Source: Burkholderiaceae bacterium
GTDB taxonomy: Bacteria > Pseudomonadota > Gammaproteobacteria > Burkholderiales > Burkholderiaceae_B
Length of the DNA stretch: 64,000 nt
Direction: 5' to 3'
NCBI GenBank assembly: GCA_017983955.1
Contig: JAGOAJ010000011.1
Span: 49,619-113,618, forward strand
Shown: piece by piece, positions 20,956 to 38,537 of the stretch
How the letters are laid out: the number at the start of each line of letters is the position of its first letter
Position numbering within the stretch: the stretch's first letter is position 1
Notes under the pieces: generated by a model
The model's input: only the letters and a program-made list of their open reading frames with translations
What the model was told of the DNA's origin: nothing
The model's database searches: none
Program-made: the position numbers and the translations under genes

Positions 20956-21323
20956 GATGGTTACTTAACTTGCATCGGCCGTCAACCGTCGCACTCACTC
21001 TGCACCCCCGCTTCGCAAAGGGTGCTGCCGTGAGCGCAACGTTTGCCTGCCTGGTGGGCTGCAGAAAGATCTCACTGGCGATGCCCCATTGTTAACTCAA
21101 CGGTTGTTAGCAACCCATTCTGAACTCGCGACTAGCCCGTAGCGGTGGGTCCTTACGTCAGTGCCTTCGCGTAGCGGGGCACCGAGTAAGGAGCCCACCG
21201 CGAAAGGGCGGGCGGACCCAAAAGACCAACCAAGCGACAAGTAAAGGCGGATGGACCTAAAAGACCAGCAACGCTACACGTAAAGACGAACGTACTTAAA
21301 AAATCAGCAACCTGACACGTAAA
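20956..21323 (+). ncRNA. Composite structured intergenic element, copy A (candidate RNA)
   Basis: Homologous to 38185-38537. Order of parts: (1) a 113-nt domain closed by GCATCG (20972-20977) and CGATGC (21079-21084), with an internal hairpin CTCAC-TCT-GCACCC ... GGGTGC-TGCC-GTGAG (20994-21034); (2) a small stem around 21088-21104; (3) a long hairpin, GCGGTGGG-T-CCTTAC ... GTAAGG-AG-CCCACCGC (21142-21201) with inner GTGCC/GGCAC; (4) three 39-nt tandem repeats. Compared with copy B the arms differ by compensatory changes (GCACCC/GGGTGC against GGACCC/GGGTCC; CTCAC/GTGAG against TTCAC/GTGAA; GTGCC/GGCAC against GCGCC/GGCGC). T:G oppositions in the stems pair only if the plus strand is the RNA. 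I know no family name for it. Confidence 0.65.
21207..21323. repeat. Three 39-nt tandem repeats (copy A)
   Basis: Three imperfect units at 21207-21245, 21246-21284 and 21285-21323, sharing the core CCTAAAAGACCAGCAACGC and the end ACACGTAAA. The same three-unit array follows the hairpin in copy B. Because 39 is a multiple of three, the minus strand stays open as 13-residue repeats (consensus-like FTCSVAGLLGPSA), but no credible start or ribosome site is present. Confidence 0.75.
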
Positions 21324-21338
21324 ACACGGAGCCACCCC

Positions 21339-22184
21339 TTATGGCAGCTCTAACTCCGTCAACAACGGCGCGTGATCAGACAACTGCTTCCAGGGCGGCC
21401 CATGCAACACCCGGGCCTGTCGGACAGCAAACCCGCGTTGATAGATACGATCCAGCCGCAACCAGGGGAAAGCCGATGGGAAAGTGCGTGGCGGCAAGGT
21501 CAGCCGCGCCGCACCTTGGTTGCCTAGTTCGTGGACTTTATGCGCCAAAGGCTTGGGCCTATACAAACCACGTAAACTATTACGCAATCGCACCGCCGCC
21601 GATTCCCGCAAACCTGACTGCGGTGCCACGGCGAATACCTCGTACAGGCCCAGTTGCTTAACAAACATAGGCGCCAGACGATTGTTCCAGTCGTTGAAGT
21701 CACCCGCGATCAGCAAAGGCTCGTCATCAGGCACCCATAGCTTAATGCGCTTAACCAGTGCTGCGACCTGTCGCAAGCGGCCGCCGCCAAACAGACCCAG
21801 ATGGACCACCAGGCAATGCACAGGCGTGCCGCCGACATCAACCACCACATGCAACAGCCCACGCTGCTCCATCTTGTGATCGGAAATATCCTGATTTTCT
21901 TGCAACAGTATGGGGTAGCGCGACAACAGCGCATTGCCATGGTCGGTCTGCGGACGCACAGCATTACATCCGTAGGCCGTGTTCATGCTCAGGGCGGCGC
22001 CTAACGATTCATGCTGGGCATGCAGGCTGGAATGTCGTTCGTTGCGACCCTGAACCTCTTGCAAGAACAGTAAATCCGGTCGTAAACCATATAAGCCTAG
22101 GCGCAAATCAGCCAGGGATTCCCGGCTACCCGTTGCCGAGCGGCCTTTATGGATGTTGTAGCTTACGACCCGGATTATCGACAC
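21339..22184 (-). CDS. Endonuclease/exonuclease/phosphatase family protein
   Basis: A 281-residue metal-dependent phosphodiesterase of the EEP superfamily (DNase I/AP endonuclease/inositol phosphatase fold). Motifs in order: VVSYNIHKG, LLFLQEVQG, LIAGDFNDW and LSDHAPLLTE, which carry the catalytic Asn, Glu, Asp and His. GTG at 22182-22184 is preferred because GAGG stands just upstream, and because the longer frame, up to 22265, would run inside aspS. It starts 16 bases after the aspS stop codon, so it is probably cotranscribed with it. The substrate is unknown; bacterial relatives include sphingomyelinase-like and DNA-processing enzymes. The structured element follows its 3' end immediately. 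Confidence 0.88.
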   Translation of the reverse strand: MSIIRVVSYNIHKGRSATGSRESLADLRLGLYGLRPDLLFLQEVQGRNERHSSLHAQHESLGAALSMNTAYGCNAVRPQTDHGNALLSRYPILLQENQDISDHKMEQRGLLHVVVDVGGTPVHCLVVHLGLFGGGRLRQVAALVKRIKLWVPDDEPLLIAGDFNDWNNRLAPMFVKQLGLYEVFAVAPQSGLRESAAVRLRNSLRGLYRPKPLAHKVHELGNQGAARLTLPPRTFPSAFPWLRLDRIYQRGFAVRQARVLHGPPWKQLSDHAPLLTELELP

Positions 22185-22200
22185 GGCGTCCTCGTGTGCA

Positions 22201-24000
22201 TTAAGCCCCAGGCTTGATTTCAGCAGGCCGCAGACGAATATGCAATTCGCGCAGCTGCTTTTCATCTACCGTGGATGGCGCCTGAGTCAGCAGGCATTGC
22301 GCCCGCTGGGTTTTGGGGAAAGCAATCACATCGCGTATGGATTCAGCGCCAGCCATCATGGTAACCAGACGATCCAAACCGAAAGCCACGCCACCATGCG
22401 GAGGCGCGCCATACTGCAGTGCATCCAGCAGGAAGCCAAACTTGCTCTGTGCTTCTTCGGGACCAATATTTAGTGCGCTAAATACCTTGCTTTGGATCTC
22501 GGCACGGTGGATACGTACCGAACCGCCGCCAATTTCCCAACCATTCAACACCATGTCGTAGGCTTTAGCCAGGGCGCGACCGGGGTCATTGCCCAGGAAA
22601 TCCTCGTGGCCATCTTTGGGGCTGGTAAAGGGGTGGTGAGCGGCAAAATAACGGCCCTCTTCCTCGTCGTATTCAAACATGGGGAAATCCACCACCCACA
22701 AGGGCTTCCAGGCGGTTTCCATAAGCCCACTTTCTTTACCGAAGTCGCTATGACCGATTTTGACGCGCAAGGCGCCAATGGCGTCGTTAACCACTTTGGT
22801 TTTATCGGCACCAAAGAAAATCAGGTCGCCACTTTTAGCGCCGGTGCGCTCAATTAATTGCGTCAACACCTGGGTATTGATGTTTTTAACGATGGGTGAC
22901 TGCAGGCCTTCGGGGATGGCAGCCGCATCATTGATCTTGATATAGGCCAGGCCCTTGGCGCCATAGATACCTACGTATTTGGTGTAGGCATCAATTTCGC
23001 TACGGGGCATGCTGCCGCCACCAGGAATACGCAAAGCCACGACGCGGCTGGCGGGATCATTGGCGGGTGCGGAAAACACCTTGAAGTCAACGTCGCGCAT
23101 CAAGTCGCCAACATCGGTGAATTCCAGCTTGACACGCAGGTCGGGCTTGTCCGAGCCAAAGCGGCGCATGGCCTCTGCCCAGCTCATGGTTGGGAAGACG
23201 GCGGGCAGCTCAACCTGCTGAACAGTCGCAAATACATGACGTATCATGCCTTCAAACATCTCGCGGATTTGCTCTTCATTCAAGAATGAAGTTTCGCAAT
23301 CTATCTGGGTAAATTCGGGCTGGCGATCGGCGCGCAAGTCTTCGTCACGGAAGCACTTGGTGATTTGATAGTAACGGTCAAAGCCTGACACCATCAACAT
23401 TTGCTTGAACAACTGGGGCGATTGCGGCAAGGCAAAGAAATGCCCCGCGTTAACCCGCGACGGAACCAGATAGTCGCGCGCGCCTTCAGGCGTGCTTTTG
23501 GTCAACATGGGTGTTTCGATATCTATAAAACCCAGGTTATCCAGGTATTTACGGACTTCGATAGACACGCGATAGCGCAGCATCAGGTTTTGCTGCATTT
23601 GCGGGCGACGCAAATCCAGCACACGGTGAGTTAAGCGCGTGGTTTCCGACAGATTATCGTCATCCAACTGGAAAGGCGGCGTCACGGAAGCATTCAGAAT
23701 TTCAATGTCCTGACACACGACTTCTATCTCGCCCGAGGCCAGATCAGTATTCACCGTGCCGTCTGGACGGGCCTGAACCAGGCCGGTGACACTGACGCAG
23801 AACTCGTTACGCAGGCGTTCAGCAATCGCAAACGCCTGAGCGTTCTCTGGATTGACCACGATTTGCGCCAAACCTGCCCGATCACGCAGGTCGATAAAAA
23901 TAACCCCTCCGTGATCACGACGACGGTGAACCCAGCCAAACAAGGTGACAGTCTGGTTCAGGTGGCTTTTATTGACCTCGCCGGTGTAGCAGGTACGCAT
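22201..24000 (-). CDS. aspS: Aspartyl-tRNA synthetase, probably non-discriminating
   Basis: A 599-residue class IIb synthetase that charges tRNA(Asp) in the cytosol. The N-terminal OB fold ([19 protein letters not shown]) is followed by the catalytic domain with motif 2 in [20 protein letters not shown] and motif 3 in [13 protein letters not shown]; the bacterial GAD insertion lies between. In the anticodon-binding fold, His30 and Gly81 match the residues of the non-discriminating Pseudomonas-type enzyme rather than the Leu of the E. coli enzyme. This suggests it also charges tRNA(Asn), to be corrected by GatCAB. That point is inference. The EEP nuclease gene follows closely on the same strand. 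Confidence 0.97.
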
Positions 24001-24037
24001 CAGGAGTTACTCCGTATAGAAAATATTTGGTATGAAT

Positions 24038-24691
24038 TCAAGGGCGATCGAAATCGCTGTCAATGGCGGAAGTGGCCGCGGCATCTGCCGCTGACGACCT
24101 CGCCACAGCGGGTACGACCACACCCATAGAAACGATGTACTTCAAGGCCGCGTCCACGCTCATGTCCAAGATCTGAACTTCGCTGCGCGGCATCATTAGA
24201 AAAAATCCCGACGTAGGATTAGGCGTGGTGGGCACATAGACGCTGACATAGTCGCCCATCAGCTTGTTGGCAACTTCACCGCTGGGTGCGCCCGTCAGAA
24301 AGGCGATGGTCCACGCGCCTTCACGTGGATACTGCACCAATACAGCTTCACGAAACGCCTGGCCGCCTGGCCCTAATACCGTATCGCTGACCTGTTTAAC
24401 CGAGTGATAAATAGACCGCACCAATGGAATGCGGCCTAATAAGTCTTCCCAACGGGAAACCACGGCCTGGCCGATAAAGTTACCGCCCACCATGCCCGAC
24501 AACAACACCACCGCCAAGACCAGTAGCAGCTGGAAACCGGGTATGGGCACACCAAAAAGTGATTGTGACGACAAGAATGCCGGCACAAAACTTTCCAGCG
24601 TGCTGATCAGCAAGCTAATGACCCAAACTGTAATGACCAGAGGAATCCAGATCAACAGCCCGGTGATGAAATATCGTTTAAAAAAACGCAT
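24038..24691 (-). CDS. DUF502 family membrane protein
   Basis: A 217-residue inner-membrane protein. Two N-terminal hydrophobic segments, residues about 5-30 (TGLLIWIPLVITVWVISLLI) and 50-75 (LLLVLAVVLLSGMVGGNFIG), are followed by a soluble domain with the family motif RIPLVRSIYHSVKQVSDTV and by VYVPTTPNPTSGFF, both typical of DUF502. Function is unknown. It lies 37 bases upstream of aspS and 17 bases downstream of the FmdB gene on the same strand, a common arrangement in Burkholderiales, so the three are likely cotranscribed. Confidence 0.9.
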   Translation of the reverse strand: MRFFKRYFITGLLIWIPLVITVWVISLLISTLESFVPAFLSSQSLFGVPIPGFQLLLVLAVVLLSGMVGGNFIGQAVVSRWEDLLGRIPLVRSIYHSVKQVSDTVLGPGGQAFREAVLVQYPREGAWTIAFLTGAPSGEVANKLMGDYVSVYVPTTPNPTSGFFLMMPRSEVQILDMSVDAALKYIVSMGVVVPAVARSSAADAAATSAIDSDFDRP

Positions 24692-24708
24692 GTGGGCTTA
24701 AAAAAGCA

Positions 24709-25020
24709 TCAGGAAGAGGGGCTAGACGCTGCCGGACTAGCGGCGGGCGCTGCCGCAGCACTGCTGGATGGCGCACTTGCCGACGACGAGTCGCCAGAGG
24801 TCGTAGATGGAGCAACAGCACCAGTGGCACCACTTTTATTATCACGAAAATCAGTCACATACCAACCTGTGCCCTTAAGCTGAAAACCAGCGGTGGTCAC
24901 TTGTTTAACATAGGTATCCTGTTCACATTCAGGGCATACCGTCAGAATAGGATCGGACATTTTTTGCAGAACATCCTGCGCATGATCACAGGAACTGCAT
25001 TTATAAGCATAAATAGGCAC
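24709..25020 (-). CDS. FmdB-type zinc ribbon protein
   Basis: A 103-residue protein of the FmdB regulatory family. The zinc ribbon is formed by CSSC at residues 8-11 and CPEC about 25 residues later, after the start PIYAYKCSSCDHAQ. The family start is M-P-I-Y-A-Y, which here corresponds to GTG at 25018-25020; longer frames up to 25101 have no family support. After the ribbon comes the usual FTDFR-like segment (GWYVTDFRDN) and then a low-complexity Ser/Ala/Pro tail of about 45 residues. Role unknown; it is found upstream of DUF502 and aspS in related bacteria. Confidence 0.88.
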   Translation of the reverse strand: MPIYAYKCSSCDHAQDVLQKMSDPILTVCPECEQDTYVKQVTTAGFQLKGTGWYVTDFRDNKSGATGAVAPSTTSGDSSSASAPSSSAAAAPAASPAASSPSS

Positions 25021-25202
25021 GACAACATCCCAGGAGAGTTTGTTTTGAAACCCGCTTGAAGCCGCCACACCGTGTAGGAACGGGTACACGCAGCAAAGCA
25101 TTGAAAAATATGATTTTAGCTGTTTTTCCCAGTGGCTACCGTTTATCGCTATGTAACCAACTGGATGGCGGGAAATTCAGACCCCCCGCCACCCCTTAAA
25201 GC

Positions 25203-26483
25203 CTAGAAGGTTTTAGGCAATAAAAAGAAGAATGCGGCGACCAATGTGGGTACCAAGGCCGACAACAACAGCTTCAGTGGAGAAATAGCCCCATCGGGGA
25301 AGCAGCCTTTCAGGATAGAAAAGCCTGCGGGGTTAGGCGCATTGGCAATCACCGTCAGGCCGCCACCGGTCACAGCGCCAGCCACCAACATGTAGCGCCA
25401 GGCTTCGCTAGTACCTTCAACCAAGGACCCAAGATAGGTCAACGCCGCATTATCCGTTACTGCCGTCAACACGGTTGACCCCCAATACAGGACCATGGGT
25501 GACAGACCGGCCAGCAGATCCTGCAACCACCATTTCTGCAGCCCGCCCAGTATCACCAAACCCGCCAGAAAGAAGCCCACCATCAAGCCCTCACGTATCA
25601 GCAACGGATTCTGATACCGCTTATAAGCATGCGCGTAGCCTATGAACAGCATCAGGTAGCCCAAGAAAATAATGGGATGATGGGCCGACAGCACTATGCC
25701 AATCAGAAACACCGTATGAATAGCGATCACTGACAAAGGAACAGGCGGGCGACGCTCACTTTCACTGGTTTCGCCCTTGCCGCCAATAGAACCATCCAGT
25801 AAATAAGGACGACAAATGAAGGTCAAGACAGCCGCATTGATAATGACTGCTGCGGCAGCGCGCCAGCCAAAGTGGGTCGCCATATAGGCGGTATCCCAGT
25901 CAAACGTTTGGGCGACCATTAGCACAGGCGGCGCAGCATAGGCAGTTAAAACGCCACCAATCGACACGTTCACAAACAAGACGCCCAAGGTCATGTATTT
26001 GAAACCTGCCTGCCCGGTACGATAGAAATACGCATCGCGCAGCAACAAAGCGGCCAGCGTCATGGCTGCAGGTTCGGTAATAAACGACCCAGCCAATGGC
26101 ACAAACGACATGGTCACAAAGAACATGGCCAGCTCGTTACGCAGGGGCATAACGCGGGCCAAGGCCTTGACCATCATGTTGACCAGCTCAATAATGGGAC
26201 GACTGGCCGCCACCACCATAATGGCAAAAACAAACGCCGGTTCAGTGAAGTTGCGGGTGTCGATGTAGCCTACGGTGTCACCCACGCCCGACAGCAGCGC
26301 CATACACGCCAACAGTACACAGGCCCAAACACCAAATACCGCCTCGACCTCGGACAGCAAATGCCATAGGCCTGAATGCGCCCCGCCCTTGTTTGCCAAT
26401 CGGGCAAACACTGGAACAGAAAACGTGTGAATGATGGCAATCGCAAATAATGCGGTTGCCAAGTACTCGAGAAAACCGGGCAT
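25203..26483 (-). CDS. Putative Na+/H+ antiporter (DUF1504-like)
   Basis: A 426-residue polytopic membrane protein with about eleven hydrophobic segments. It begins LEYLATALFAIAIIHTFSVP and contains EVEAVFGVWACVLL, SFITEPAAMTLAALLLRD and TVLTAVTDNAALTYLGSLV, motifs of the PF07399 group annotated as putative Na+/H+ antiporters. Paired half-repeats with conserved polar residues (TEPAAM and TDNAAL) recall the ion-transporter superfamily. It would exchange cations for protons across the inner membrane, but no member known to me is well studied. It stands alone on the minus strand. Confidence 0.85.
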   Translation of the reverse strand: MPGFLEYLATALFAIAIIHTFSVPVFARLANKGGAHSGLWHLLSEVEAVFGVWACVLLACMALLSGVGDTVGYIDTRNFTEPAFVFAIMVVAASRPIIELVNMMVKALARVMPLRNELAMFFVTMSFVPLAGSFITEPAAMTLAALLLRDAYFYRTGQAGFKYMTLGVLFVNVSIGGVLTAYAAPPVLMVAQTFDWDTAYMATHFGWRAAAAVIINAAVLTFICRPYLLDGSIGGKGETSESERRPPVPLSVIAIHTVFLIGIVLSAHHPIIFLGYLMLFIGYAHAYKRYQNPLLIREGLMVGFFLAGLVILGGLQKWWLQDLLAGLSPMVLYWGSTVLTAVTDNAALTYLGSLVEGTSEAWRYMLVAGAVTGGGLTVIANAPNPAGFSILKGCFPDGAISPLKLLLSALVPTLVAAFFFLLPKTF

Positions 26484-26596
26484 AACTTTACCTATCTAAA
26501 ATACTGAAGCACGCAAATTGTCTCACGAGATGACAAATCGCGTCATGGACAGTGGGTACAGACCACATGCTTTGCACGCGATACTAGTCTTCGCTA

Positions 26597-28201
26597 TCAG
26601 GTGCCTTGATCTTGCAGCACCATGGCTGCCCCTTTTTCGGCAATCATAATCGTTGGTGAGTTGGTGTTTCCCGAGGTGATCGTGGGCATGATGGATGCAT
26701 CTATTACCCTTAAGCCCTGGACGCCATGTACCCGTAACCTATCATCTACCACGGCCAGCGCATCGTGGCCCATTTTACAAGTGCCTACCGGATGGAAAAT
26801 AGTGGTTCCAATTTCCCCTGCTGCCCGTTCCAGCTCATCCTGGGTCTGGCAGGACAGGCCAGGCTTATATTCTTCAGGCCGATACGCGGCCAGCGCAGAC
26901 TGGGACATAATGCGCCGAGTCAGTCGCACGCTATCGGCAGCGACGTACTTATCTTCAGGCGTACTTAAGTAGTTGCACTGTATCGCAGGCGCGACGCTGG
27001 CGTCCGGGGACACTATGGTCACATGCCCACGGCTGCCCGGCCTAAGATTGCACACTGACGCCGTAATCGCCGGAAAGTCATGCAACGCGTCGCCAAACTT
27101 TTCCAGCGACAAGGGCTGTACATGGTATTCCAAATTGGCCCGCTGCTGCCCAGGATCAGAACGGGCAAAGGCCCCCAATTGCGAAGGTGCCATCGCCAGC
27201 GGCCCGGTTTTTTTAGTGGCATATTCCAGCCCCATCAAGGCCTTTCCCCACCACGACGATGCCATCGTGTTTAAGGTCTTGGCGCCAGCAACCTTATAGA
27301 TCAACCTAAGCTGCAAATGATCCTGCAAATTCTGCCCTACGCCGGGTAGATCATGCACCAGCGGTATATTCAGGGACTGCAGTAAATGGCCTGGTCCTAT
27401 GCCAGAAACCTGTAGTAATTGTGCCGACCCTATGGACCCCGCCGCCAATATAATTTCTACACGCGCCCGGGCCTGTTGCTGATGCCCATCGTGATGATAA
27501 CTAACAGCATCGGCCTTACGTTCCTGAAAAACTATCCGCTGAGCCTGGGCACCCGTTAGCACGGTCAGGTTGGAGCGATGGGCTACCGGGTGCAAGAACG
27601 CTTTGGCCGCTGTCCAGCGCACACCACGTTTCTGATTGACTTCGAAGTAAGAACAGCCCTCGTTGTTGCCGGTATTGAAATCATCCACCGACGGTATGCC
27701 AGCCTGACTTGCTGCCTGACGAAATGCATCTAATATGGACCAGGACAAGCGTTGACGCTCTACCCGCCACGTCCCCTGACTGCCATGCAGATCGCTGGCG
27801 CCGCCATGATAGTCTTCAGTCTGTTTGAAAATAGGCAATACGTCCTGCCAAGACCAGCCCGCATTACCCTGCGCCGCCCAACCATCGTAGTCAGCGGCCT
27901 GGCCGCGCATGTAAATCATGCCATTAATGGCTGAACTACCGCCCAGCACCCGACCGCGCGGATAACCTAAGCGTCTATTGTTAATGCCTGGATCAGGCTG
28001 GGTCTGATAACACCAGTCAGTGCGCGGATTGCCTATGCAATACAAATACCCCACGGGGATATGTATCCAGTGCCAGTTGTCACGCCCCCCAGCTTCCAGC
28101 AGCAATACCTTATGTGCCGGGTTAGCCGACAAGCGATTCGCCAGCAGACAGCCCGCCGAACCTGCGCCCACAATGATGTAATCATATTCGGGCGCCGTCA
28201 T
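26597..28201 (-). CDS. GMC family FAD-dependent oxidoreductase (choline dehydrogenase-like)
   Basis: A 534-residue flavoprotein. The FAD site [19 protein letters not shown] is at the N-terminus, the GMC signature 1 is [18 protein letters not shown], and [16 protein letters not shown] is signature 2. The C-terminal catalytic region has [10 protein letters not shown] with the active-site His. Such enzymes oxidise alcohols; BetA-like sequences of this length often act on choline, polyethylene glycol or other alcohols, so the substrate stays open. The ATG at 28199-28201 shares one base with the ubiA stop codon (TAATG), which suggests coupling, although the functions look unrelated. Confidence 0.9.
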
Positions 28202-29160
28202 TAGATCAGGGTCCCGCCAAGTGCAGCTATTATCATTAATACCCCCACCCAAATATTGGCCCGGAACAACATGAAGTTCAAATCCGGCCTGGTCAAATTA
28301 AACACCCACATCTGCCAGGCAAAGTGCAAGCCTATAAGCACCATGACCAGGTAATAAGGCCAAGACATACCCAGCGCGACACCCGCATACAGCCATAGCA
28401 CCATGGTAGCGACATAAAACCCGCTAATCCAGGCTTTGCCCTTATCGCGAAACTTTAGCGCCGTGGAGCGCAAGCCCAGTTGGGTGTCATCGCGCACATC
28501 CACATACGCGTAGATAGAGTCGTAGCCCACTTGCCACAGTACCGCACCAGCCCACATGGCAATGGCTGCCAGCGGCACCGCGTTCTGGGTGTCGGACCAG
28601 GCCATTAGCATGCCCCAATTGAAACCTATCCCCAGCACGACTTGAGGCCAATACGTAAATCGCTTACAGAGCGGATATACGATCACGATAGGCAGCAAAG
28701 CCACTGCCAGCCAACGACTATAGGAATTGATGGCAAACATTAGCAGACCGCACAGCACTAGCTGCGCCAGCACGAAATACAAGGCTTGCTTCAGACTGAT
28801 CTGACCGCTGGTCAAAGGACGAAAACGGGTACGCTCAACCTGATGGTCAAAGTTGCGATCAAAGATATCGTTGAAGGTGCAACCTACGCCACGCATCAAT
28901 AAGGCGCCCAGCGAAAAGATAATCAGGCGAAATAAAGTAGGCCAACCGTCGGCCGCTTGTACCAAGGCCGCCAGACAAGGCAACAGCGTCAACCAGGTGC
29001 CAACCGGACGGTCTAGTCGGCACAAGCGCGCATACGGCCCCCAGGACCGCGGCAACCAGCGTTCAGGCCAGTCGTCTGGCCGCATATCCGACAAATCTGG
29101 CAGGCTGGCAGCATGTGCCGATACAGGCTGGCGTTCAATATCCGAAAAAGCAGACGTCAT
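28201..29160 (-). CDS. ubiA: 4-hydroxybenzoate octaprenyltransferase
   Basis: A 319-residue inner-membrane enzyme that prenylates 4-hydroxybenzoate, an early step in ubiquinone synthesis. It has the two Asp-rich motifs of the family: NDIFDRNFDHQVERTRFRPL and, in the second half, YAYVDVRDDTQLGLRSTALK. About eight hydrophobic segments are visible. The N-terminal tail of about 30 residues is longer than in the E. coli enzyme. It ends at 28201 and touches the GMC oxidoreductase gene. The upstream aminotransferase gene ends six bases before it, so the three form one transcription unit. Confidence 0.95.
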   Translation of the reverse strand: MTSAFSDIERQPVSAHAASLPDLSDMRPDDWPERWLPRSWGPYARLCRLDRPVGTWLTLLPCLAALVQAADGWPTLFRLIIFSLGALLMRGVGCTFNDIFDRNFDHQVERTRFRPLTSGQISLKQALYFVLAQLVLCGLLMFAINSYSRWLAVALLPIVIVYPLCKRFTYWPQVVLGIGFNWGMLMAWSDTQNAVPLAAIAMWAGAVLWQVGYDSIYAYVDVRDDTQLGLRSTALKFRDKGKAWISGFYVATMVLWLYAGVALGMSWPYYLVMVLIGLHFAWQMWVFNLTRPDLNFMLFRANIWVGVLMIIAALGGTLI

Positions 29161-29166
29161 AGAGAA

Positions 29167-30375
29167 TTAGAGGCTATCTTTAATCAACTGCCCCAAGATG
29201 GCAATACCTTCGCGTATCCGGGCTTCAGATACCGTGACGAAGCTAAGCCGCAAGGTATTGGCCTGGGCATGCTTGCCAATGAAAAACGGCGCGCCGGGAA
29301 CAAAAGCCACATGCTTGGCCACGGCCCTGTCCAGCAATTCAGTGGCATCAATATGGGCAGGCAAGGTAACCCAGATGAACATGCCGCCTTCGGGTCGAGT
29401 CCAGGTCACGGAGTCCGGGAAAGACTGATCCATGGCATCCAGCATAAAGCCGCACTGCTCTTTGTACAGATCCCTGACCCGGGGCAAATGGGTGGTTAAA
29501 AAGCCATCCTTGATGGTTTCGTAGACCGCCATCTGCGTCAATGACGAGGTATGTAGATCCGTTGCCTGCTTAATTTGCGCCAACTTGGCAATAATCGGCT
29601 TGGGCGCCACGATATAACCCAGACGAAGACCTGGCGCAAACACCTTGGAAAATGACCCCAGACGCACCACGGTCGCGCCCACCTCGCGCCCCAGCCCTAA
29701 CAAACCAGGCTGCGCGGTACCGGCGTAACGTAAATCCCCGTAAGGATCATCTTCAATAATGGGCACGCCCACATCGGCACAACGCTGCACCAGCGCCTTG
29801 CGTCGTTCCAAATTTAACGTCAAGCCAGTGGGATTCTGAAAGTTAGGCAAGGCATACAGAAAACGGGCGCCTGCCACCACATCATCGGTCAGCCCTTCGG
29901 GTATCAAGCCACCTTCATCAGTAGGCACTGGCGCATATACAGGCTCGAACAGCGAAAACGACTGTATCGCCCCCAGGTAGCTAGGGGACTCAAGCAATAT
30001 CTTGCTGCCAGGATCAATAAACAGCTTGCCCAACATATCCAGCGCCTGCTGGGAGCCCGATACGATCAACACTTCGTCAGGCGTAATGTCTGCCCCAACC
30101 CGTTGCATATCCTGGGCCACCCAGGCGCGCAATGGCGCATAACCTTCAGTGGGTCCGTACTGCAGCGCGGACTCGCCGGACTGCTCCAGGACGCGGTTCA
30201 GCGCCGCTTGCAACTGGGCCGTGGGGAAGCCCTTGGGCGACGGTAAGCCACCCGCGAAGGAAATGATTTCAGGGCGTACCGTAATCTTCAGGATTTCCCG
30301 AATCGTGGAGCTGGTAAGCAGCCTAGCCCGTTTTGAAAACGTATAAGGCGTGACAGTTTGGGTAGACGAGTCCAT
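29167..30375 (-). CDS. PLP-dependent aminotransferase, class I/II
   Basis: A 402-residue fold-type I aminotransferase of the group that includes 2-aminoadipate and valine-type transaminases (MocR-related catalytic domains without a DNA-binding domain). Motifs: FAGGLPSPKGFP near residue 40, QYGPTEGYAPLRAWVAQDM, PNFQNPTGLTL, IIEDDPYGDLRY, and LGSFSKVFAPGLRLGY, which carries the lysine that binds PLP. The substrate is not evident. It is the first gene of the minus-strand unit with ubiA and the GMC oxidoreductase. Upstream, after a short gap, lies a tiny membrane protein gene. Confidence 0.9.
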   Translation of the reverse strand: MDSSTQTVTPYTFSKRARLLTSSTIREILKITVRPEIISFAGGLPSPKGFPTAQLQAALNRVLEQSGESALQYGPTEGYAPLRAWVAQDMQRVGADITPDEVLIVSGSQQALDMLGKLFIDPGSKILLESPSYLGAIQSFSLFEPVYAPVPTDEGGLIPEGLTDDVVAGARFLYALPNFQNPTGLTLNLERRKALVQRCADVGVPIIEDDPYGDLRYAGTAQPGLLGLGREVGATVVRLGSFSKVFAPGLRLGYIVAPKPIIAKLAQIKQATDLHTSSLTQMAVYETIKDGFLTTHLPRVRDLYKEQCGFMLDAMDQSFPDSVTWTRPEGGMFIWVTLPAHIDATELLDRAVAKHVAFVPGAPFFIGKHAQANTLRLSFVTVSEARIREGIAILGQLIKDSL

Positions 30376-30450
30376 GATCCTGAATTTCCCCGAAAGTAGG
30401 CTAGCGATAGCCCCTAGATTACCGCAAGTTACCTATGGTTAGCCCGGCTA

Positions 30451-30564
30451 TTATTTTTTCTGGCGATCTTTTCGGACAATACGCAACAGAAACCAGAAAA
30501 GCGACAGAGAACACAACAATCCCCCCGCAAAAATAGCGACCGCTATCCATTCACCCGTAGTCAT
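30451..30564 (-). CDS. Small single-span membrane protein (37 residues)
   Basis: A short open frame with good coding signs. The ATG at 30562-30564 follows AGAAGGGG with a 6-base gap. The product starts MTTGEWIAVAIFAGGLLCSL, continues with a hydrophobic run to about residue 28, and ends in a strongly basic tail (RIVRKDRQKK). That is a single transmembrane helix with a positively charged cytoplasmic end. I do not recognise a family. It lies between the aminotransferase gene and a metallo-hydrolase gene, all on the minus strand. Confidence 0.65.
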   Translation of the reverse strand: MTTGEWIAVAIFAGGLLCSLSLFWFLLRIVRKDRQKK

Positions 30565-30612
30565 TGCGCACCCCTTCTGTCCGGAAAAACTCTATTCTAA
30601 GACGTAATAATT

Positions 30613-31587
30613 TTACTGACCGCCCAGGCTTTCCTTTTCCATCAACAAATACGTACCGTAGGCATTCAAACGATTCGCGTCCTTGAAGGCAGGGTAGTTT
30701 TCATACGCAGACCAATCGGTTTGCGCGTAAGCCTCTTCAAAGTCGACCATATCGTCCACGGCAGCGCCCATTTCCTTACGCAAATACAACAGGTACTCGC
30801 GTGTCAGCTGGATATCGGCCTTGGGGTCTGTTGATGCCTTGCCATGTCCTGGCACCACCACTGCAGGTTGGGTATCGGCGATGCGCTCTAGAGCCGCCAG
30901 CCAAGCCTTGCTATCGGCGCTGCCCACGAACGGCACGCGACCGGTAAAAAACAGATCGCCCGCAAACAAGACGGACTCTTCCTGAACAAACAGCATAACG
31001 TCGCCGTCCGAGTGTCCGCCGCTAGCGTCAATCAACTGAAAGTGCATGCCGCCCATCTCGAAAGGCTGGGGTTTGCCGTCAGCAAAACTTAGCCAGCGAT
31101 CAGCGCCCAGCACCTGGGTGTTCTCATCCACCCAAGGAGCCAAATCGGCCTTGCGTTGTTCTAAACGTTCCTGGGCTTCGCCCGAGTTGAAATATGCTTG
31201 GCCTGCTTCATGCGCCAAAATTTCTGCGCCCAGCGCTTTAAATGCCTGCAAACCATACAGGTGATCTGCATGATAATGACTGACAATCACCCGTTTTATA
31301 GGCTGATCCGTGACTTTAGCGATAGCCGCCACCATAGCCTGCCCCAACACTGGCGTCCCCAGCGCGTCAAACACCACCACACCGTCCTGGGTCACCACAA
31401 AACCGGCGTTCGACATAAACCCCTGGTTCTCGGCAGCAGCCATCCCCGAATGGCCAGCAAAATAATACACATGCGGACTAAGCTGGGTAGGTTCCAGAAC
31501 AATATCAGTAGCCTGCGCAGCCCCTGTAGCCAATAAGCCCGCCATAGCGGCAAGTCCCGTCAACAACTGACGAACTGTATGCAACAT
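30613..31587 (-). CDS. Periplasmic MBL-fold metallo-hydrolase
   Basis: A 324-residue exported metallo-beta-lactamase-fold protein. Residues 1-23 are a signal peptide (ending TGAAQA). The metal site HYHADHLYG matches HxHxDH, with further ligands in SGGHSDGD and VPGHGKAS. ATG at 31585-31587 follows ACGGAG with 5 bases between, so longer frames are rejected. Relatives of this type are annotated as SoxH-like or quinoprotein relay hydrolases. Function is not fixed. It is divergent from a GlcG/HbpS-like exported protein gene, with 119 bp between starts. Confidence 0.88.
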   Translation of the reverse strand: MLHTVRQLLTGLAAMAGLLATGAAQATDIVLEPTQLSPHVYYFAGHSGMAAAENQGFMSNAGFVVTQDGVVVFDALGTPVLGQAMVAAIAKVTDQPIKRVIVSHYHADHLYGLQAFKALGAEILAHEAGQAYFNSGEAQERLEQRKADLAPWVDENTQVLGADRWLSFADGKPQPFEMGGMHFQLIDASGGHSDGDVMLFVQEESVLFAGDLFFTGRVPFVGSADSKAWLAALERIADTQPAVVVPGHGKASTDPKADIQLTREYLLYLRKEMGAAVDDMVDFEEAYAQTDWSAYENYPAFKDANRLNAYGTYLLMEKESLGGQ

Positions 31588-31706
31588 AGTATCTCCGTAA
31601 CGTAGGTATTTATATAGAGCTAGTCTAGCAGGCCCAGGATGGCAGACTCGGTTATGCTGGCAGCCTTGAGGCACTTACGTCGCCGTTTCTTACCTAGGAG
31701 ATCATC

Positions 31707-32204
31707 ATGATAATCAAAAAAACCACCCTTGCACTGACCTTGGCACTTTGCGCCAGCGGCGTCATGGCTCAAGAAGCCACCTTTGAAACCCGCTCGCTAA
31801 CTCCCGAGGCTGCACTGGTCGCCGCCCAAGCCGCCCTGAAAAGCTGTCGCGACAGCGGCTACCAAGTTGCCGTAGCCGTTACTGACCGCACCGGCCTGCC
31901 CATCGCCATGTTGCGTGATCGTTACGCAGGCGCCCACACCCCAGAAACCGCTACCCGCAAAGCCTACACCGCAGCCAGCTTCAAAATGGACACCACCAGC
32001 CTGGGCAAAGTATCCCAGCCCGGCGAACCCACCTCTGGGATACGCCACGTGTCGCACATATTGGCACTGGGTGGCGGCCTGCATATTGAAGCGGCTGGTT
32101 CGCTGGTAGGCGCTATCGGTGTATCTGGTGCGCCCGGTGCAGATGCCGATGATGCTTGCTCGCAAGCTGGTATAGACGCCATACAGGACGACCTGGATTT
32201 TTAA
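31707..32204 (+). CDS. GlcG/HbpS family exported protein
   Basis: A 165-residue protein of the GlcG/HbpS fold, some members of which bind haem or corrinoids. Residues 1-22 form a signal peptide with a hydrophobic core and end SGVMAQ. The domain is recognisable by SLTPEAALVAAQAAL, VAVAVTDRTGLPIAMLRDRYAG, TRKAYTAASFKMDT and GAIGVSGAPGADADDACSQAGID. ATG follows CTAGGAG with good spacing. It is divergent from the periplasmic metallo-hydrolase, and both products are exported, so a shared periplasmic role is possible but unproven. Confidence 0.9.
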   Translation: MIIKKTTLALTLALCASGVMAQEATFETRSLTPEAALVAAQAALKSCRDSGYQVAVAVTDRTGLPIAMLRDRYAGAHTPETATRKAYTAASFKMDTTSLGKVSQPGEPTSGIRHVSHILALGGGLHIEAAGSLVGAIGVSGAPGADADDACSQAGIDAIQDDLDF

Positions 32205-32209
32205 GCTGT

Positions 32210-33007
32210 TTACAGCAAAGACAACAGCATTTTCGTAGCCACGGCAAGCAACAGGAAGGCAAACAGCGTCCTAAGCTTGCTGACCGGCAAGGCATGCGCC
32301 ATTCTGGCCCCCAAAGGTGCGGTAAATACGCTGATAATGGCCATGCCCAATAACGCCGGCAAATAAACAAACCCCAGGCTCATGGCGGGCAAACTGGCAT
32401 TGCCATAGCCGCTGCCAATAAACCCTATGGTGCCCGCCACCGCAATCGGAAAGCCCAGCGCTGCCGATGTCCCTATCACCACGCGTAGCGGCACATTACA
32501 CGCCGTCATGAAGGGCACCAGCAATGTGCCCCCGCCTATACCTACAAAGCTGGAAAACACACCTATCAGGCCGCCGCCCGTCAACATACCCGCACGACCA
32601 GGCAAGGCTCGGGTAGGCTTAGGCTTGATGTTGAACAACATCTGCACGGCAACGCAATACACAAACACCACAAAAATCATCTTCAAGATGTCGCTGGACA
32701 ACCGAGACGCCAGCCAGGCCCCTAACAAGGTTCCCAGTATTAGCCAGGGCGTCATGGCTTTCACTATGGACCAGTTCACCGCGCCACGGGCATGATGGGC
32801 ACGTAGACTTGCCAACGATGTAAATACTATCAACGACATTGATGTCCCCAACGCCAGGTGCTGAATATAGTCAGACGCCATGCCTTGGGCTGTAAACAGG
32901 AATACCAAAACTGGCACAGTCACCGTACCACCGCCGATACCCAAAAGGCCTGCCAGTATTCCTATACCTGCCCCCAGGGCCAAGTAGGAAAGTATTTCTA
33001 TCATCAT
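32210..33007 (-). CDS. TauE/SafE family membrane transporter
   Basis: A 265-residue polytopic protein of the sulfite exporter TauE/SafE family, believed to export small sulfur or carboxylate anions. Two homologous halves each start with a glycine-rich helix: LAGLLGIGGGTVTVPVLVFL near the N-terminus and FSSFVGIGGGTLLVPFMTA in the middle. The start is one of two adjacent ATG codons (33005-33007 or 33002-33004); longer frames lack support. The stop lies five bases from that of the convergent GlcG-like gene. Substrate not determined. Confidence 0.9.
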   Translation of the reverse strand: MMIEILSYLALGAGIGILAGLLGIGGGTVTVPVLVFLFTAQGMASDYIQHLALGTSMSLIVFTSLASLRAHHARGAVNWSIVKAMTPWLILGTLLGAWLASRLSSDILKMIFVVFVYCVAVQMLFNIKPKPTRALPGRAGMLTGGGLIGVFSSFVGIGGGTLLVPFMTACNVPLRVVIGTSAALGFPIAVAGTIGFIGSGYGNASLPAMSLGFVYLPALLGMAIISVFTAPLGARMAHALPVSKLRTLFAFLLLAVATKMLLSLL

Positions 33008-33103
33008 AAGAAAACCTAGTAGAAAGCCAGAAAAAACGGGGAGCATACTCCGTCTATTGACCATGTGCCCACGACGATACCGCCGATAACCTGCCTCACC
33101 AAT

Positions 33104-33132
33104 GAAAACACCCCAATGATTGGGGTGTTTTC
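33104..33132. terminator. Terminator downstream of ssb
   Basis: Perfect 13-bp inverted repeat GAAAACACCCCAA (33104-33116) and TTGGGGTGTTTTC (33120-33132) with a 3-nt loop. The arms end in A and T runs, so it can work in both directions. It closes ssb on the minus strand. Confidence 0.9.
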
Positions 33133-33174
33133 AAGAGCGTCGTGCTTTGTACTTACAGGGTGTTTAAAGACCCA

Positions 33175-33669
33175 TTAGAACGGTACGTCATCATCCATAT
33201 CAGCCAGATTCACGCCGGGCGAGGCCTGGGGTGCTGCTGGACGTGGCTGTGGCGGACGCTGCTGCTGACGCTGAGGCGCTGGCGCCTGGTTGTATTCACC
33301 ACCGCCCATGCCACCACCTTCACCACCGCCTTCGCGGCCACCCAGCATTTGCATCTGGTCAGCGACGATGTCGGTGCTGTAGCGGTCGGCGCCAGTGTCC
33401 TTATCCTGCCATTTACGAGTTTTCAGGCGGCCTTCCACATAGACGGGACGGCCCTTTTTCAGGTATTCACCGGCAATTTCGGCCAGGCGGTTGTAGAACA
33501 CCACGCGGTGCCATTCGGTTTCTTCGCGGCGTTCGCCCGTAGCTTTGTCTTTCCATTGCGAGGTGGTGGCGATGGACACATTGCAAATGGCTGCGCCGTC
33601 GGGGCTGTAGCGGACTTCTGGATCACGGCCCAGGTTGCCGATAAGAATAACTTTATTAACTGATGCCAT
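33175..33669 (-). CDS. ssb: Single-stranded DNA-binding protein
   Basis: A 164-residue homotetrameric SSB that coats single-stranded DNA in replication, recombination and repair. The OB fold opens with [20 protein letters not shown] and includes [20 protein letters not shown] and [20 protein letters not shown] Gly/Gln/Pro-rich linker follows, and the protein ends with the acidic tip DDDVPF that binds partner proteins. The arrangement uvrA, MFS transporter, ssb is typical of related genomes. A strong terminator follows. Confidence 0.97.
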
Positions 33670-33800
33670 GAGCTGACCTTTATCTGGAAAAATTGCACAT
33701 ACTTGCCATTATCGGTCATAAACCGCTGGCAAAGAAGCTGATTGCGTATTCCTACGCGGGGGAATTTTGTCCCGCCCTTGGTTCTGTCCTTTGCGACGTG

Positions 33801-35009
33801 CTACGCGGGCGATTTGAAGCCGCGCGCGGTAATCAACCATAACAGAGCCAGGGCGGCCGACATGAAAAATACGGTAGAGGGCTGACCACGCGACACCATC
33901 AGGCCACCACCTACGGCCCCCATAAACACGCCTAGCGACTGGGCAGTGTTGTAAAAGCCCAGGGCCAGTCCTTTGTATTCAGGCGGTGCAACGCGCGACA
34001 CTAGCGATGGCTGCAAGGCCTCCAGAATATTGAAGGCGATAAAGAAACCAACCAAGGCCGCAACCAGGGCGACGAAATTGTCGCTAAGCAAGGGCATCAG
34101 CGCCAACACAACGACCAGGCCAGCAATAGAGTAGTCCATGGCACGTTTGTGAGCGCGACGCGTTTCGGTGTAGAACACAGCGGGCACCATCAATACAAAC
34201 GACAGCAAGATCACCGGTAGATAGACCTTCCACAGGCTGGCCGTGGTGTAGCCGCCCACATTCTCCAACATGCCTGGCGCAACAATAAACAAGGCCATCA
34301 AGATGAAGTGCAGGCAAAACACACCGAAATTCAAACGTAGCAGGTCGATATGCCCCAGAACGTCACGCGGACTGGCCTGAACAATGGGAGCCTGTGCCTG
34401 GGGAACAGCAGGCACGACAAAGCTGGCAATCAGCAAGCACACAAATCCCAACAAGCTAATGGCCCAGAATAGGCCAGACAAGCCAAACTCGCCCACCAGC
34501 ACAGGCGACAGCACCAACGATACGGCAAATGAAATGCCTATGGACCCGCCCACCATCGCCATGGCGCGGGTACGCACTTCGGGGCGAGTGGCATCAGCCA
34601 CCCAAGCGGTAATGGCTGCAGATACAGCTCCCAGCCCTTGTATGATGCGACCCGCAATGATCCAGTTAACGTCCGAGGCCAGCGCGCACACCACGCCGCC
34701 GATAATAAACAACAGCATGCCAAACACGATGACGGGACGCCGGCCATAACGGTCCGATGCCATCCCTAAGGGTATTTGCATAATGGCCTGGGTCAAGCCG
34801 TAGGCGCCCAGCGCCAGGCCGACCTTGGCCGCGTTATTGCCACCCGGTATGGTTTGGGCCGCCACAGCAAATATGGGTGTCAGCATGAACAGCCCCAGCA
34901 TGCGGGACGCAAACAGCAGCGCCAGCGCGATACTGGCGCGGCGTTCCGTTTGCGTCAGCCTTAGCTTGACTCGCGTAGCGCTTTGGGGATGGACAACAGC
35001 GTCAGACAT
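33801..35009 (-). CDS. MFS transporter (YajR-like)
   Basis: A 402-residue major facilitator superfamily carrier with twelve hydrophobic segments. The loop between helices 2 and 3, GMASDRYGRRPVIVFGML, carries the family signature D-R-x-G-R-R. Other features are LFMLTPIFAVAAQTIPGG in helix 1 and GRIIQGLGAVSAAITAWVAD in helix 4. The ATG at 35007-35009 (MSDAVVHPQ) is preferred to an upstream ATG ten codons earlier that would add a run of Phe. Drug or metabolite efflux is likely; the substrate is unknown. It is divergent from uvrA and lies upstream of ssb. Confidence 0.92.
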   Translation of the reverse strand: MSDAVVHPQSATRVKLRLTQTERRASIALALLFASRMLGLFMLTPIFAVAAQTIPGGNNAAKVGLALGAYGLTQAIMQIPLGMASDRYGRRPVIVFGMLLFIIGGVVCALASDVNWIIAGRIIQGLGAVSAAITAWVADATRPEVRTRAMAMVGGSIGISFAVSLVLSPVLVGEFGLSGLFWAISLLGFVCLLIASFVVPAVPQAQAPIVQASPRDVLGHIDLLRLNFGVFCLHFILMALFIVAPGMLENVGGYTTASLWKVYLPVILLSFVLMVPAVFYTETRRAHKRAMDYSIAGLVVVLALMPLLSDNFVALVAALVGFFIAFNILEALQPSLVSRVAPPEYKGLALGFYNTAQSLGVFMGAVGGGLMVSRGQPSTVFFMSAALALLWLITARGFKSPA

Positions 35010-35153
35010 GAAAAACTCTACAAAAAAGAAAAATGGCACTACGCCTAAACAGCAGCGCTAGAGACACACATATACAGATCAAGTACCGCACGCCAAGGCA
35101 CTGCGCGTTATAGTAGCAAGTTAGCCTGATGAAAGACCTTGAACTTGAAGCTG

Positions 35154-37997
35154 ATGGAAGCAATTCGCATCCGGGGCGCCCGTACGCACAACCTTAAAAA
35201 CATCTCGGTAGACCTGCCCAGGCATAAACTGGTGGTGGTTACCGGTTTGTCGGGATCAGGCAAGTCGTCGCTGGCCTTCGACACTTTATACGCCGAGGGT
35301 CAACGCCGCTACGTAGAAAGCTTATCGGCCTACGCGCGGCAATTTCTGCAACTGATGGACAAGCCTGACGTGGACCTGATCGAAGGTCTATCGCCTGCTA
35401 TTTCCATAGAACAGAAGTCTGCCGGGCATAATCCGCGCTCTACGGTAGGCACTATTACCGAGATCCACGATTACCTGCGCCTATTGTACGCGCGGGTGGG
35501 TACCCCTTACTGTCCCGAGCACGCCCTGCCCTTGCAGGCTCAAAGCGTTAGCCAGATGGTAGACAAAGTGCTTAGCTGGGCGCCTGATACCCGGCTATCC
35601 ATACTGGCCCCTGTGGCCCGCTCGCGTAAAGGCAGCTTCGAAGACGAATGCGCCAGTTTACAGGCTCAGGGTTTTGTGCGCCTGCGTGTCAATGGCACCA
35701 TGGTGTCCATAGACGATCTGGAACCACTGAATAAAAACGAAAAACACGATTTCGATGTGGTGATAGACCGCCTGCGGGTGCGCCCCGACAGCCAGCAGCG
35801 CCTGGCCGAGAGCTTTGAAACAGCACTAAAGCTGGCGCAAGGCCGGGCTATAGCCATAAATATGGACAACGACGAAGAACATACGTTTTCCAGCCATTAT
35901 GCTTGCCCCATTTGTCAGCATAGCCTGACCGAACTAGAACCGCGCCTGTTCAGCTTCAATAATCCTGTGGGTGCCTGTCCTGTATGTGATGGGCTAGGTA
36001 ATGTGGATGTCTTCGACCCCAAACGCGTGGTCGCTTTTCCTGACCTTAGCCTGCCCAGCGGCGCCATACGCGGCTGGGATCGTCGTAACGCCTTTACCTA
36101 CACACTGCTGACTAGTTTGGCAGCCCATTACGACTTCGATATCGAATTGCCGTTCAACCAGCTACCTGACGATATACAGCAATGTGTTCTGTACGGATCA
36201 GGGGACGAAGAAATCGCCTTTCTGTACCTGAATGAAAAAGGCGCCACTACCGTCAAGCAACATAGTTTTGAAGGTGTCATCCCCAACTTGGAACGGCGCT
36301 GGCGCGAAACCGACTCCAACGCGGTACGCGAAGAACTGGGCAAATATCGCCATAGCCAAAAATGTTCCTCATGCCAGGGCTCACGACTGCGCACCGAAGC
36401 CCGCCACGTCCTGATCGGTAGCGAAGTGGGCCTGGGCGAGCGGCGCGGCCGCGCCATTTTTGAAGTCGAAGCCCTGTCGCTGTCCGATTGCCTGGCCTGG
36501 TTTCAGGCATTGACACTGACGGGTGCAAAAAAGGAAATTGCCGATCGCATCGTGCGCGAGATAGAAGCCCGCCTGCAGTTTCTGAACAATGTCGGCCTGA
36601 ATTATCTGTCTCTGGACCGCAGCGCGGACACCATTTCAGGCGGCGAGGCGCAACGTATCCGTCTGGCCAGCCAGATAGGCTCTGGGCTGACTGGTGTCAT
36701 GTATGTGCTGGATGAGCCATCCATAGGACTGCATCAGCGCGACAATGACCGTTTAATCGGCACCTTGATGCATTTGCGCGACCTGGGCAACAGCGTCATC
36801 GTGGTCGAACACGATGAAGACATGATACGGTCCGCCGACTTTGTCATCGACATGGGGCCAGGCGCAGGCGAACATGGCGGGGATATCGTGGCTCAGGGCA
36901 CGCCGCAAGACATTCTGGACAACCCTGCGTCGCTAACGGGGCAGTACCTAAGCGGCAGCCGCCGCATCGCCATCCCGGAACACCGCGCCATTACCGACGA
37001 CCTTCCTCGCTTGCTGCTTAAAGGCTGTCGGGGCAACAACCTGAAATCAGTGGATCTGGCCATACCGGCCGGCCGCCTGGTCTGCATCTCGGGAGTATCC
37101 GGCTCAGGGAAGTCCACCCTGATCAATGACACCCTGGCCACCGTGGTGTCCCAAAAGCTGCACCGTGCCCAGACCGAACCTGCGCCTTACGACACCCTGG
37201 AAGGACTAGAGCATTTCGACAAAATCATTAACGTCGATCAAAGCCCCATAGGACGTACACCGCGCAGCAACCCAGCCACGTATACCGGCATGTTCACGCC
37301 CATACGCGAGCTGTTCGCGGGGGTGCCAGAATCACGCACCCGAGGTTACGACCCAGGCCGCTTCTCCTTCAACGTCAAAGGCGGACGTTGCGAAGCCTGC
37401 CAAGGCGACGGCGTGGTCAAAGTGGAAATGCACTTCCTACCCGACATGTATGTGCCCTGCGATGTATGCGCAGGCCAGCGCTATAACCGCGAGACCCTGG
37501 AAATCCGCTATCGCGGGCGCAATGTCAGTGAAGTATTAGGCCTGACCGTAGAGCAAGCGCTGGACTACTTCGACGCCGTGCCTACCGTGGCGCGCAAACT
37601 GCATACCCTGATGGATGTAGGCTTATCGTATATACGACTGGGCCAAAGCGCGACCACGCTATCCGGCGGCGAGGCCCAACGCGTCAAACTATCGCTGGAA
37701 CTGTCCAAACGCAGCACCGGACGCACGCTATACATTCTGGACGAACCCACCACTGGCCTGCATTTTCACGACATCGCCCTGCTGCTGGATGTGCTGCGCA
37801 AACTGGTCGACGCCGGCAACACCGTGGTCGTGATCGAACACAATCTGGATGTCATAAAGACAGCTGACTGGGTAGTGGACATGGGGCCGGAAGGCGGTAA
37901 CGGCGGTGGGCGCATCGTGGTTCAAGGCACACCAGATGATATTGCTGCTTGCGAAGCCAGTCATACAGGGCGCTATCTGAAGCAAATGCGGTCTTAG
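35154..37997 (+). CDS. uvrA: Excinuclease ABC subunit A
   Basis: A 947-residue ATPase that finds damaged DNA and loads UvrB in nucleotide excision repair. Two ABC modules are visible: Walker A motifs [15 protein letters not shown] (near residue 32) and [14 protein letters not shown] (near 645), and signatures [14 protein letters not shown] and [14 protein letters not shown]. Zinc sites include CPICQ ... CPVC in the first half and CEACQGDG ... CDVC in the second. The ATG at 35154 ([15 protein letters not shown]) is the conserved start; the earlier in-frame TTG at 35139 is less likely. The gene is monocistronic and is followed by intergenic structured elements. Confidence 0.98.
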
Positions 37998-38053
37998 TTC
38001 TTATGACCTACAGCGCCTCCCCCTCTAGAGGCCCTGTTCTGAAGCGGTGCCTA

Positions 38054-38130
38054 GCCCGCAGTGGCGAGTCCTTACGGGAGTGATTTTCCGCGTAGCGGGA
38101 TCACAGAGTAAGGAGCTCGGCACTACGGGC
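38054..38130 (+). ncRNA. Structured hairpin, copy C (partial element)
   Basis: Long hairpin related to part 3 of elements A and B. Outer arms GCCCG (38054-38058) and CGGGC (38126-38130), then GTG-G-CGAG and CTCG-G-CAC, then CCTTAC (38070-38075) and GTAAGG (38108-38113), then GTGAT (38080-38084) and ATCAC (38100-38104), and a tip CCGC-GTA-GCGG. The inner arm pair differs from GTGCC/GGCAC of copy A and GCGCC/GGCGC of copy B at both partners, so pairing is kept. It lies 56 bases after the uvrA stop and could also serve to end that transcript, though no T-run follows. Confidence 0.65.
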
Positions 38131-38184
38131 GGAGGTACTTAATGTACCGACAGTGCCGCACCACACTCTTAGGTTTCTTCAGTA

Positions 38185-38537
38185 GCATCGGCCGTCAACC
38201 GTCGGGCTTCACTCTGGACCCCGCTTCGCAAAGGGTCCTGCCGTGAACTCAACGTTTGCCTGCCTAGTGGGCTGCCACAAGACTTCACTGACGATGCCAC
38301 ACCGTTAATTCAACGGGTGTTAGTAACCCATTCTGAATATGCGACGAGCACGTAGTGGCGAGGCCTTACGGGAGCGCCTTTCGCGAAGCGGGGGCGCAGA
38401 GTAAGGAGCTCGGCACAGCGGGCGAACGTACCTACAAGACCAACGACGCCACTCGTAAATGCAAACGCACCCAAGAAACCAACAACGCCACACATAAACA
38501 CAACCCTACCTAAAAGACGAAGAACCTTGCACCAAAC
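38185..38537 (+). ncRNA. Composite structured intergenic element, copy B (candidate RNA)
   Basis: Second full copy of the element at 20956-21323, with the same order and nearly the same spacing. The first domain, GCATCG (38185-38190) to CGATGC (38292-38297), is exactly 113 nt in both copies. Its hairpin is TTCAC-TCT-GGACCC ... GGGTCC-TGCC-GTGAA (38208-38247). A small stem CCGTT-N5-AACGG follows near 38302-38316; in copy A the first two pairs become T:G. The long hairpin spans 38355-38416 (CCTTAC/GTAAGG, GCGCC/GGCGC, tip CGC-GAA-GCG), and three 39-nt repeats end the element 51 bases before the TetR start codon. Function unknown. Confidence 0.65.
38421..38537. repeat. Three 39-nt tandem repeats (copy B)
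   Basis: Units at 38421-38459, 38460-38498 and a degenerate third at 38499-38537, with cores such as AAGACCAACGACGCCACTCG. They match the array at 21207-21323 in unit length, number and place. Confidence 0.7.

Follow-up and report, generated by a model that had tools for sequence, protein, structure and literature searches.

The question raised by this locus is whether a repeated element with long hairpins, found in the genome of a Burkholderiaceae bacterium, is a structured RNA or a piece of mobile DNA. The window, that is, the whole stretch of 64,000 nucleotides (nt) analysed here (assembly GCA_017983955.1, contig JAGOAJ010000011.1, positions 49,619 to 113,618), carries two full copies of the element, A and B, and a partial copy C. 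The sequence-only reading had recognised a composite element in these copies, at positions with which both the sequence and our model matches agree (Table 1), had taken paired changes between the stem arms as a sign of selection for structure, and had read the element as one plus-strand RNA. That interpretation is partly supported. In our judgement, the element probably belongs to a family of small mobile DNA elements with structured ends, similar to miniature inverted-repeat transposable elements (MITEs) or to REPINs (inverted doublets of repetitive extragenic palindromic sequences, REPs), and related to an element bearing an rpn-like gene. Mobile DNA is preferred to a single RNA gene because the copies are dispersed, two of their sites are empty in a sister genome, the two hairpins, H1 and H2, fold on opposite strands, and a gene-bearing relative exists.

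The family is dispersed in the window's own genome (hereafter G000; 3.32 Mb, 62 contigs, 94.5% complete), where a search with copy B returned 55 matching pieces (E up to 0.01). Two models were used, R1 built from H2 alone and R2 from H1 read on the minus strand. R1 found 36 H2 modules together with 26 H1 modules, the latter on the opposite strand, and R2 found 33 H1 modules together with 15 H2 modules, the latter on the H2 strand. These searches, a check proposed in the sequence-only reading, bore out the prediction that the genome would hold further copies with further paired changes. Pairing of the matches by position gives 31 short copies in which both modules are present, two rpn loci, and four H2 modules without an H1 match; copy C is one of these four, and another (C26:48961) retains part of H1. 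The anatomy, drawn from 30 loci (L001-L030), runs from 41-nt head units through H1, a middle of variable length and H2 to tail units with a 39-nt spacing, and the whole element measures about 260-490 nt. Each module is a long hairpin with a paired span of about 75 nt, a conserved internal loop (G-N-N-A opposite A/C-G-A) and, in most copies, a GNA/GNNA loop, and tandem units of ~40 nt run outwards from it. H1 and H2 fold on opposite strands, and a model made from H2 only finds H1 on the opposite strand; they are therefore inverted homologues, and the element contains the same strand-specific hairpin module twice, in opposite orientations. The outer units are homologous only in part. One tail variant, when reversed, aligned to the head consensus far above shuffles (0/2000), the common tail consensus did so marginally (0.049), the second tail unit did not match the head (0.58), and copy by copy the reversed tail outscored the unreversed one in 17 of 28 cases. 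As to the H1 loop, a rarer form occurs in four of 27 aligned copies (L016, L025, L026 and L030); L022 and L025, both on contig C49, are 92.6% alike over 351 nt, yet their whole H1 loops differ.

The sister genome G001 was the sole other genome of the same genus among those returned by the searches. Copy B matched it at four places, more weakly than in G000, and the models at two (R1) and four (R2), with six element sites in total. Copy B had no match among 99 further relatives, R1 found none in 29 other genomes, R2 none in 59 others, and a distant blastn search of copy B against phages and plasmids gave no match. One head-H1 pattern was absent from viral contigs, and met four loci in a genome collection, three of them in Alcaligenaceae bacterium CGII-43 (all three 100% identical to G001 over the overlap) and one in Polyangium, which was taken as a chance match; records near the window's genome may be omitted from the collections scanned in this way. 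The identity with G001 at these three loci places the host in the vicinity of CGII-43. The first impression that no known family matches also held for Rfam, in which the whole window had no match at the gathering score, while the copy B region, searched at E up to 1, gave a single chance-level match (E 0.5) far under that score. No description of the element was found in a limited literature search.

The mismatches within the stems indicate on which strand each module folds. Counted on hand-set pairs and read on the plus strand, H1 (27 copies) has 524 Watson-Crick, 47 A.C, 3 G.T and 38 other cells with 9 gaps, 19 of the 47 A.C cells being at one pair, and H2 (29 copies) has 668 Watson-Crick, 1 A.C, 20 G.T and 7 other cells, nine of the 20 G.T being at one pair; in distinct pair types the bias is smaller and of the same sense (7 A.C to 3 G.T in H1, 1 to 8 in H2). 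An excess of A.C on the plus strand is an excess of G.T on the minus strand, and therefore the folded strand is minus for H1 and plus for H2. Thus, the T:G oppositions once held to pair only in plus-strand RNA do speak for that strand in the long hairpin H2, and in H1 they are outnumbered by A.C. Folding energies agree. The consensus values are -10.7 kcal/mol on the plus and -41.1 on the minus strand for H1, and -35.5 and -27.5, respectively, for H2, with a smaller gap in the per-copy means (for H1, -52.1 on the minus against -43.7 on the plus strand; for H2, -47.9 on the plus against -41.9 on the minus strand). The expected strand has the lower energy in 26/26 H1 and 29/29 H2 copies with RNA parameters, and in 26/26 and 22/29 with DNA parameters. 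GNA/GNNA motifs are present on the folded strand in 27/29 H2 and 22/26 H1 copies, and on the other strand in 16/29 H2 (not necessarily in the loop) and 0/26 H1 copies. Four of the matches for H1 are GNNA, three of which lie outside the loop, and the alignment gives GCGCAAGC loops in those copies. These observations bear directly on the idea of one plus-strand non-coding RNA holding all hairpins. It would accommodate the real covariation, the plus-strand preference of H2, and the fact that H1 can also be folded on the plus strand, if less well. It is nevertheless extremely improbable, since H1 and H2 are inverted homologues, H1 folding best on the minus strand in every one of the 26 copies, four of the 36 H2 modules occur without an H1 match, and the family is dispersed, with two sites empty in G001.

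The H2 alignment comprises all of the 30 loci except L018 (29 loci, 28 distinct rows), and the H1 alignment, read on the minus strand, 26 of the 30 (without L007, L012, L028 and L029). The stems are paired in 98.7% of cells in H2 and 99.1% in H1. Changes on both sides occur at 12 of 25 pairs and in 63 cells in H2 (shuffle means 6.4 and 13.0; 0/500 as high), and at 7 of 26 pairs and in 41 cells in H1 (shuffle means 4.0 and 10.5; 3/500 and 0/500 as high), counts which are inflated in that the structures were derived from the same alignments and the copies are related. Structures slid along the alignments had at most 3 pairs and 4 cells changed on both sides in H2, and 3 pairs and 11 cells in H1. 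Further pair types, one of five measures, were not above shuffles (179/500 as high for H2, 201/500 for H1). Hence structure-preserving paired changes, as the sequence-only reading proposed, stand above shuffles and slid structures in both hairpins. The closing stem GCATCG/CGATGC is indeed present in copies A and B, and was rejected as a structure of the family, since it is 82.7% paired, has 0 changes on both sides and is no better than shuffles. Imperfect palindromes are known to undergo template-switch mutation, which copies one arm onto the other, so that paired changes could arise in neutral palindromes without selection; one variant of the H1 loop does look like a local rearrangement. Such copying should erase mismatches, yet both modules have preserved an asymmetric internal loop, which also persists across species (by eye), and copying would not by itself give a strand bias of G.T over A.C. 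We therefore regard this explanation as highly improbable. Paired changes alone do not mean RNA, because they are called common in the hairpins of REPINs (PMC3116915, drawn on here, like the other papers cited, in excerpt).

The relative with a gene is found at two loci of G000. At C2:34925-36364, H1 is followed by an intact open reading frame of 393 amino acids and by H2, so that the gene lies between both arms. On C50, H1 precedes an open reading frame of 405 amino acids, with a tail-like stretch and no H2 behind it. A stretch of 1658 nt that begins in a head is 94% alike between the two loci, and a gap of four residues in a repeat-like stretch separates their proteins. The C-terminus of the protein matches DUF4351 above the Pfam cut-off, as do all ten aligned homologues, in which D99, E119 and Q121 are invariant (10/10). 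In a profile comparison, the D99 region and E119/Q121 align with RpnA, a match which is formally weak (probability 1.8%, E 0.028); D63, E82 and Q84 of RpnA are among the residues mutated in PMC5350276. None of the ten homologues matches a Pfam PD-(D/E)XK family or PF04754, and searches in NCBIfam, PADLOC, PHROGs and PDB sequences named no Rpn, there being no Rpn model in NCBIfam. Homologues of the DUF4351 gene are present in 23 of 101 genomes, G000 included. Comparable arms were not seen at ten homologue loci in seven genomes (G017, G059, G030, G056, G050, G026 and G022) in a weak scan by folded flanks and inverted repeats, the inverted-repeat part of which was blank for the G000 control (L071), and in which high G+C content makes many flanks fold. 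In G030, two DUF4351 genes (L074 and L096) are 90% alike over 1246 nt with no arms visible, and the duplication extends about 175 nt past the matched coding stretch on one side. At the site of the C2 locus, G001 has rpn fragments in the same place, flanked by what resembles a head unit (by eye) on one side and by a hairpin on the other, and therefore the association of gene and arms predates the split of the species.

Mobility and age were assessed by comparing sites between the two genomes. Of the short-copy sites, four (copy A, copy B, L006 and L007) were looked up in G001. Both flanks were found together for copy A and L006 only, and the element was absent at both, the flanks lying 22 nt apart in G001 versus 488 in G000 for copy A, and 9 versus 421 for L006; at copy B and L007, just one flank was in place. 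L006 and L007, which are different loci, share a stretch of 429 nt that is 92% alike and has borders within 6 nt of the L006 insertion, although part of its left end may be flank, as it resembles the empty site of G001. Several points weigh against mobility as the whole account. The absence of the element in G001 could be due to deletion there, and no target-site duplication is visible at the L006 site, where the sequences have diverged. Five of the six G001 sites have at least one flank in common with element loci of G000, and several copies are therefore old and inherited; the remaining site (C1:231646) had no match among the 33 loci compared, a set that covers part of the G000 sites. Of the transposase families, just Y1_Tnp was sought. 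On C50, 154 nt of G001 replace 1729 nt and resemble a decayed arm (by eye); because of this apparent arm, recombination with an element already resident there is an alternative to transposition as the origin of the rpn copy. Finally, at two shared sites G001 retains a single module, a solo H1 (L102, against L026) and a solo H2 (L042, against L029), in which both arms have changed together with stem and internal loop kept (by eye), a pattern that mobility alone does not predict. Two further G001 loci, L032 and L033, are short forms in which H1 seems to break off halfway and to continue into the latter half of H2 and a tail unit (by eye).

These kept folds are the best evidence for a role in place, and they favour the view that selection acted on the fold at insertion or later; the solo H1 of G001 has a folding energy of -51.3 kcal/mol on the minus strand, as against -41.5 on the plus strand. 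A role of the element in place is thus possible. One form of it would be a structured RNA derived from once mobile DNA, with the modules transcribed outwards (H1 on the minus and H2 on the plus strand) and acting, for example, on mRNA ends. On the folded strand G.T prevails over A.C, a bias for which RNA is at least as good an account as DNA; the energies favour the expected strand more completely under RNA than under DNA parameters; and the solo modules of G001 retain their stems and internal loops in spite of changed arms. We consider it rather unlikely, given that the 30 copies have no clear orientation to their neighbouring genes (convergent at 11, both forward at 7, divergent at 7, both reverse at 4 and one unassigned, with no background rate for comparison) and that no Rfam family reaches the gathering score. 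A statement that all copies are intergenic was dropped, since the gene calls excluded open reading frames overlapping the element by construction.

Table 1. Modules and unit arrays of the element copies in the window (R1 and R2, model matches with E-values)
Feature	Position in window	Strand	Evidence
Copy A and arrays	20849..21336	+	Stretch without counterpart in G001 (22 nt between the same flanks)
Copy A, H1 module	20961..21084	folded strand minus	R2, C43:70579-70702, E 8e-34
Copy A, H2 module	21122..21214	folded strand plus	R1, C43:70740-70832, E 1.9e-25
Copy A, tail, three 39-nt units past H2	21206..21322	+	Sequence, 39-nt spacing; end set by period
Copy C, H2 module without H1 match	38041..38135	+	R1, C43:87659-87753, E 2.5e-19
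Copy B, H1 module and head unit	38174..38297	folded strand minus	R2, C43:87792-87915, E 1.2e-30
Copy B, H2 module	38335..38428	folded strand plus	R1, C43:87953-88046, E 1.1e-19
Copy B, tail, three 39-nt units past H2	38420..38536	+	Sequence, 39-nt spacing; end set by period

In the window, copy C has one tail-type unit after H2, which runs into the head of copy B (by eye). The gene uvrA (35139-37997) lies directly upstream of copies C and B, and the DNA past uvrA differs in G001.

Among known systems, the mobile-DNA family favoured here shares features with both REPINs and MITEs. As in the REPINs of PMC3116915, two hairpin-forming repeats stand in inverted orientation on either side of a spacer, copies are numerous and paired changes occur; for REPINs, folding as single strands has been proposed. 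By analogy, the enzyme that moves the present element would recognise its hairpins in single-stranded form, with each arm read on a strand of its own, and the short copies would move in trans. A standard REPIN/REP family moved by a RAYT (REP-associated tyrosine transposase) would explain the two inverted hairpins, the dispersed copies and the paired changes. It is improbable in that no Y1_Tnp (PF01797) match was found in G000, a genome 94.5% complete in which the gene may have been missed (the same search was positive in 5 of 14 control genomes), and in that the paired span of about 75 nt compares with REPs of 20-40 bp (PMC3733652). The hairpins thus exceed REPs in length about two- to fourfold, contain an internal loop and have arrays of ~40-nt units outside. 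No conserved GTAG tag is seen (by eye), and by REP length and GTAG/CGTC tag the element would not be classed as a REPIN. Like bacterial MITEs, as described in the excerpts of PMC3733652, the element is short and non-coding, with inverted ends, dispersed copies, absence at related sites and a longer gene-bearing relative; it differs from them in having hairpin modules and unit arrays instead of terminal repeats of 15-30 bp, and no target duplication was seen.

If the short copies are mobile, the rpn-like gene is a candidate either for their engine or for a carried gene. It resembles the Rpn genes (YhgA-like, COG5464; PMC5350276 and PMC10327210) in the D/E/Q residues of its DUF4351 protein, which the weak profile match pairs with those of RpnA, and in the gap of the repeat stretch, and differs in that Escherichia coli RpnA matches PF04754 and the present protein does not. 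According to the excerpts of PMC10327210, rpn genes have undefined ends, give no sign of moving autonomously, probably do not encode transposases and have a role in phage defence, because of which a carried defence gene would be a fair reading here also. The rpn genes in those excerpts have no defined ends, whereas the gene described here lies between shared structured arms. It is tentatively conceivable, and in our view unlikely, that the Rpn-like nuclease mobilises the element by recognising its strand-specific hairpin ends, the short copies being its non-autonomous offspring; the case for it comes from a single old locus and a single derived copy.

The count of G.T versus A.C in each arm provides a simple sequence test that distinguishes a strand-specific inverted pair from one RNA, and which should be useful for other structured repeats. 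If the Rpn-like protein were the engine, the rpn-bearing element would be a transposon that moves autonomously by means of a PD-(D/E)XK protein; according to the sections of PMC10327210 consulted, no autonomous transposase with this fold is known. The presence of an rpn-like gene with shared structured ends makes the question of whether Rpn moves DNA or is merely carried directly testable.

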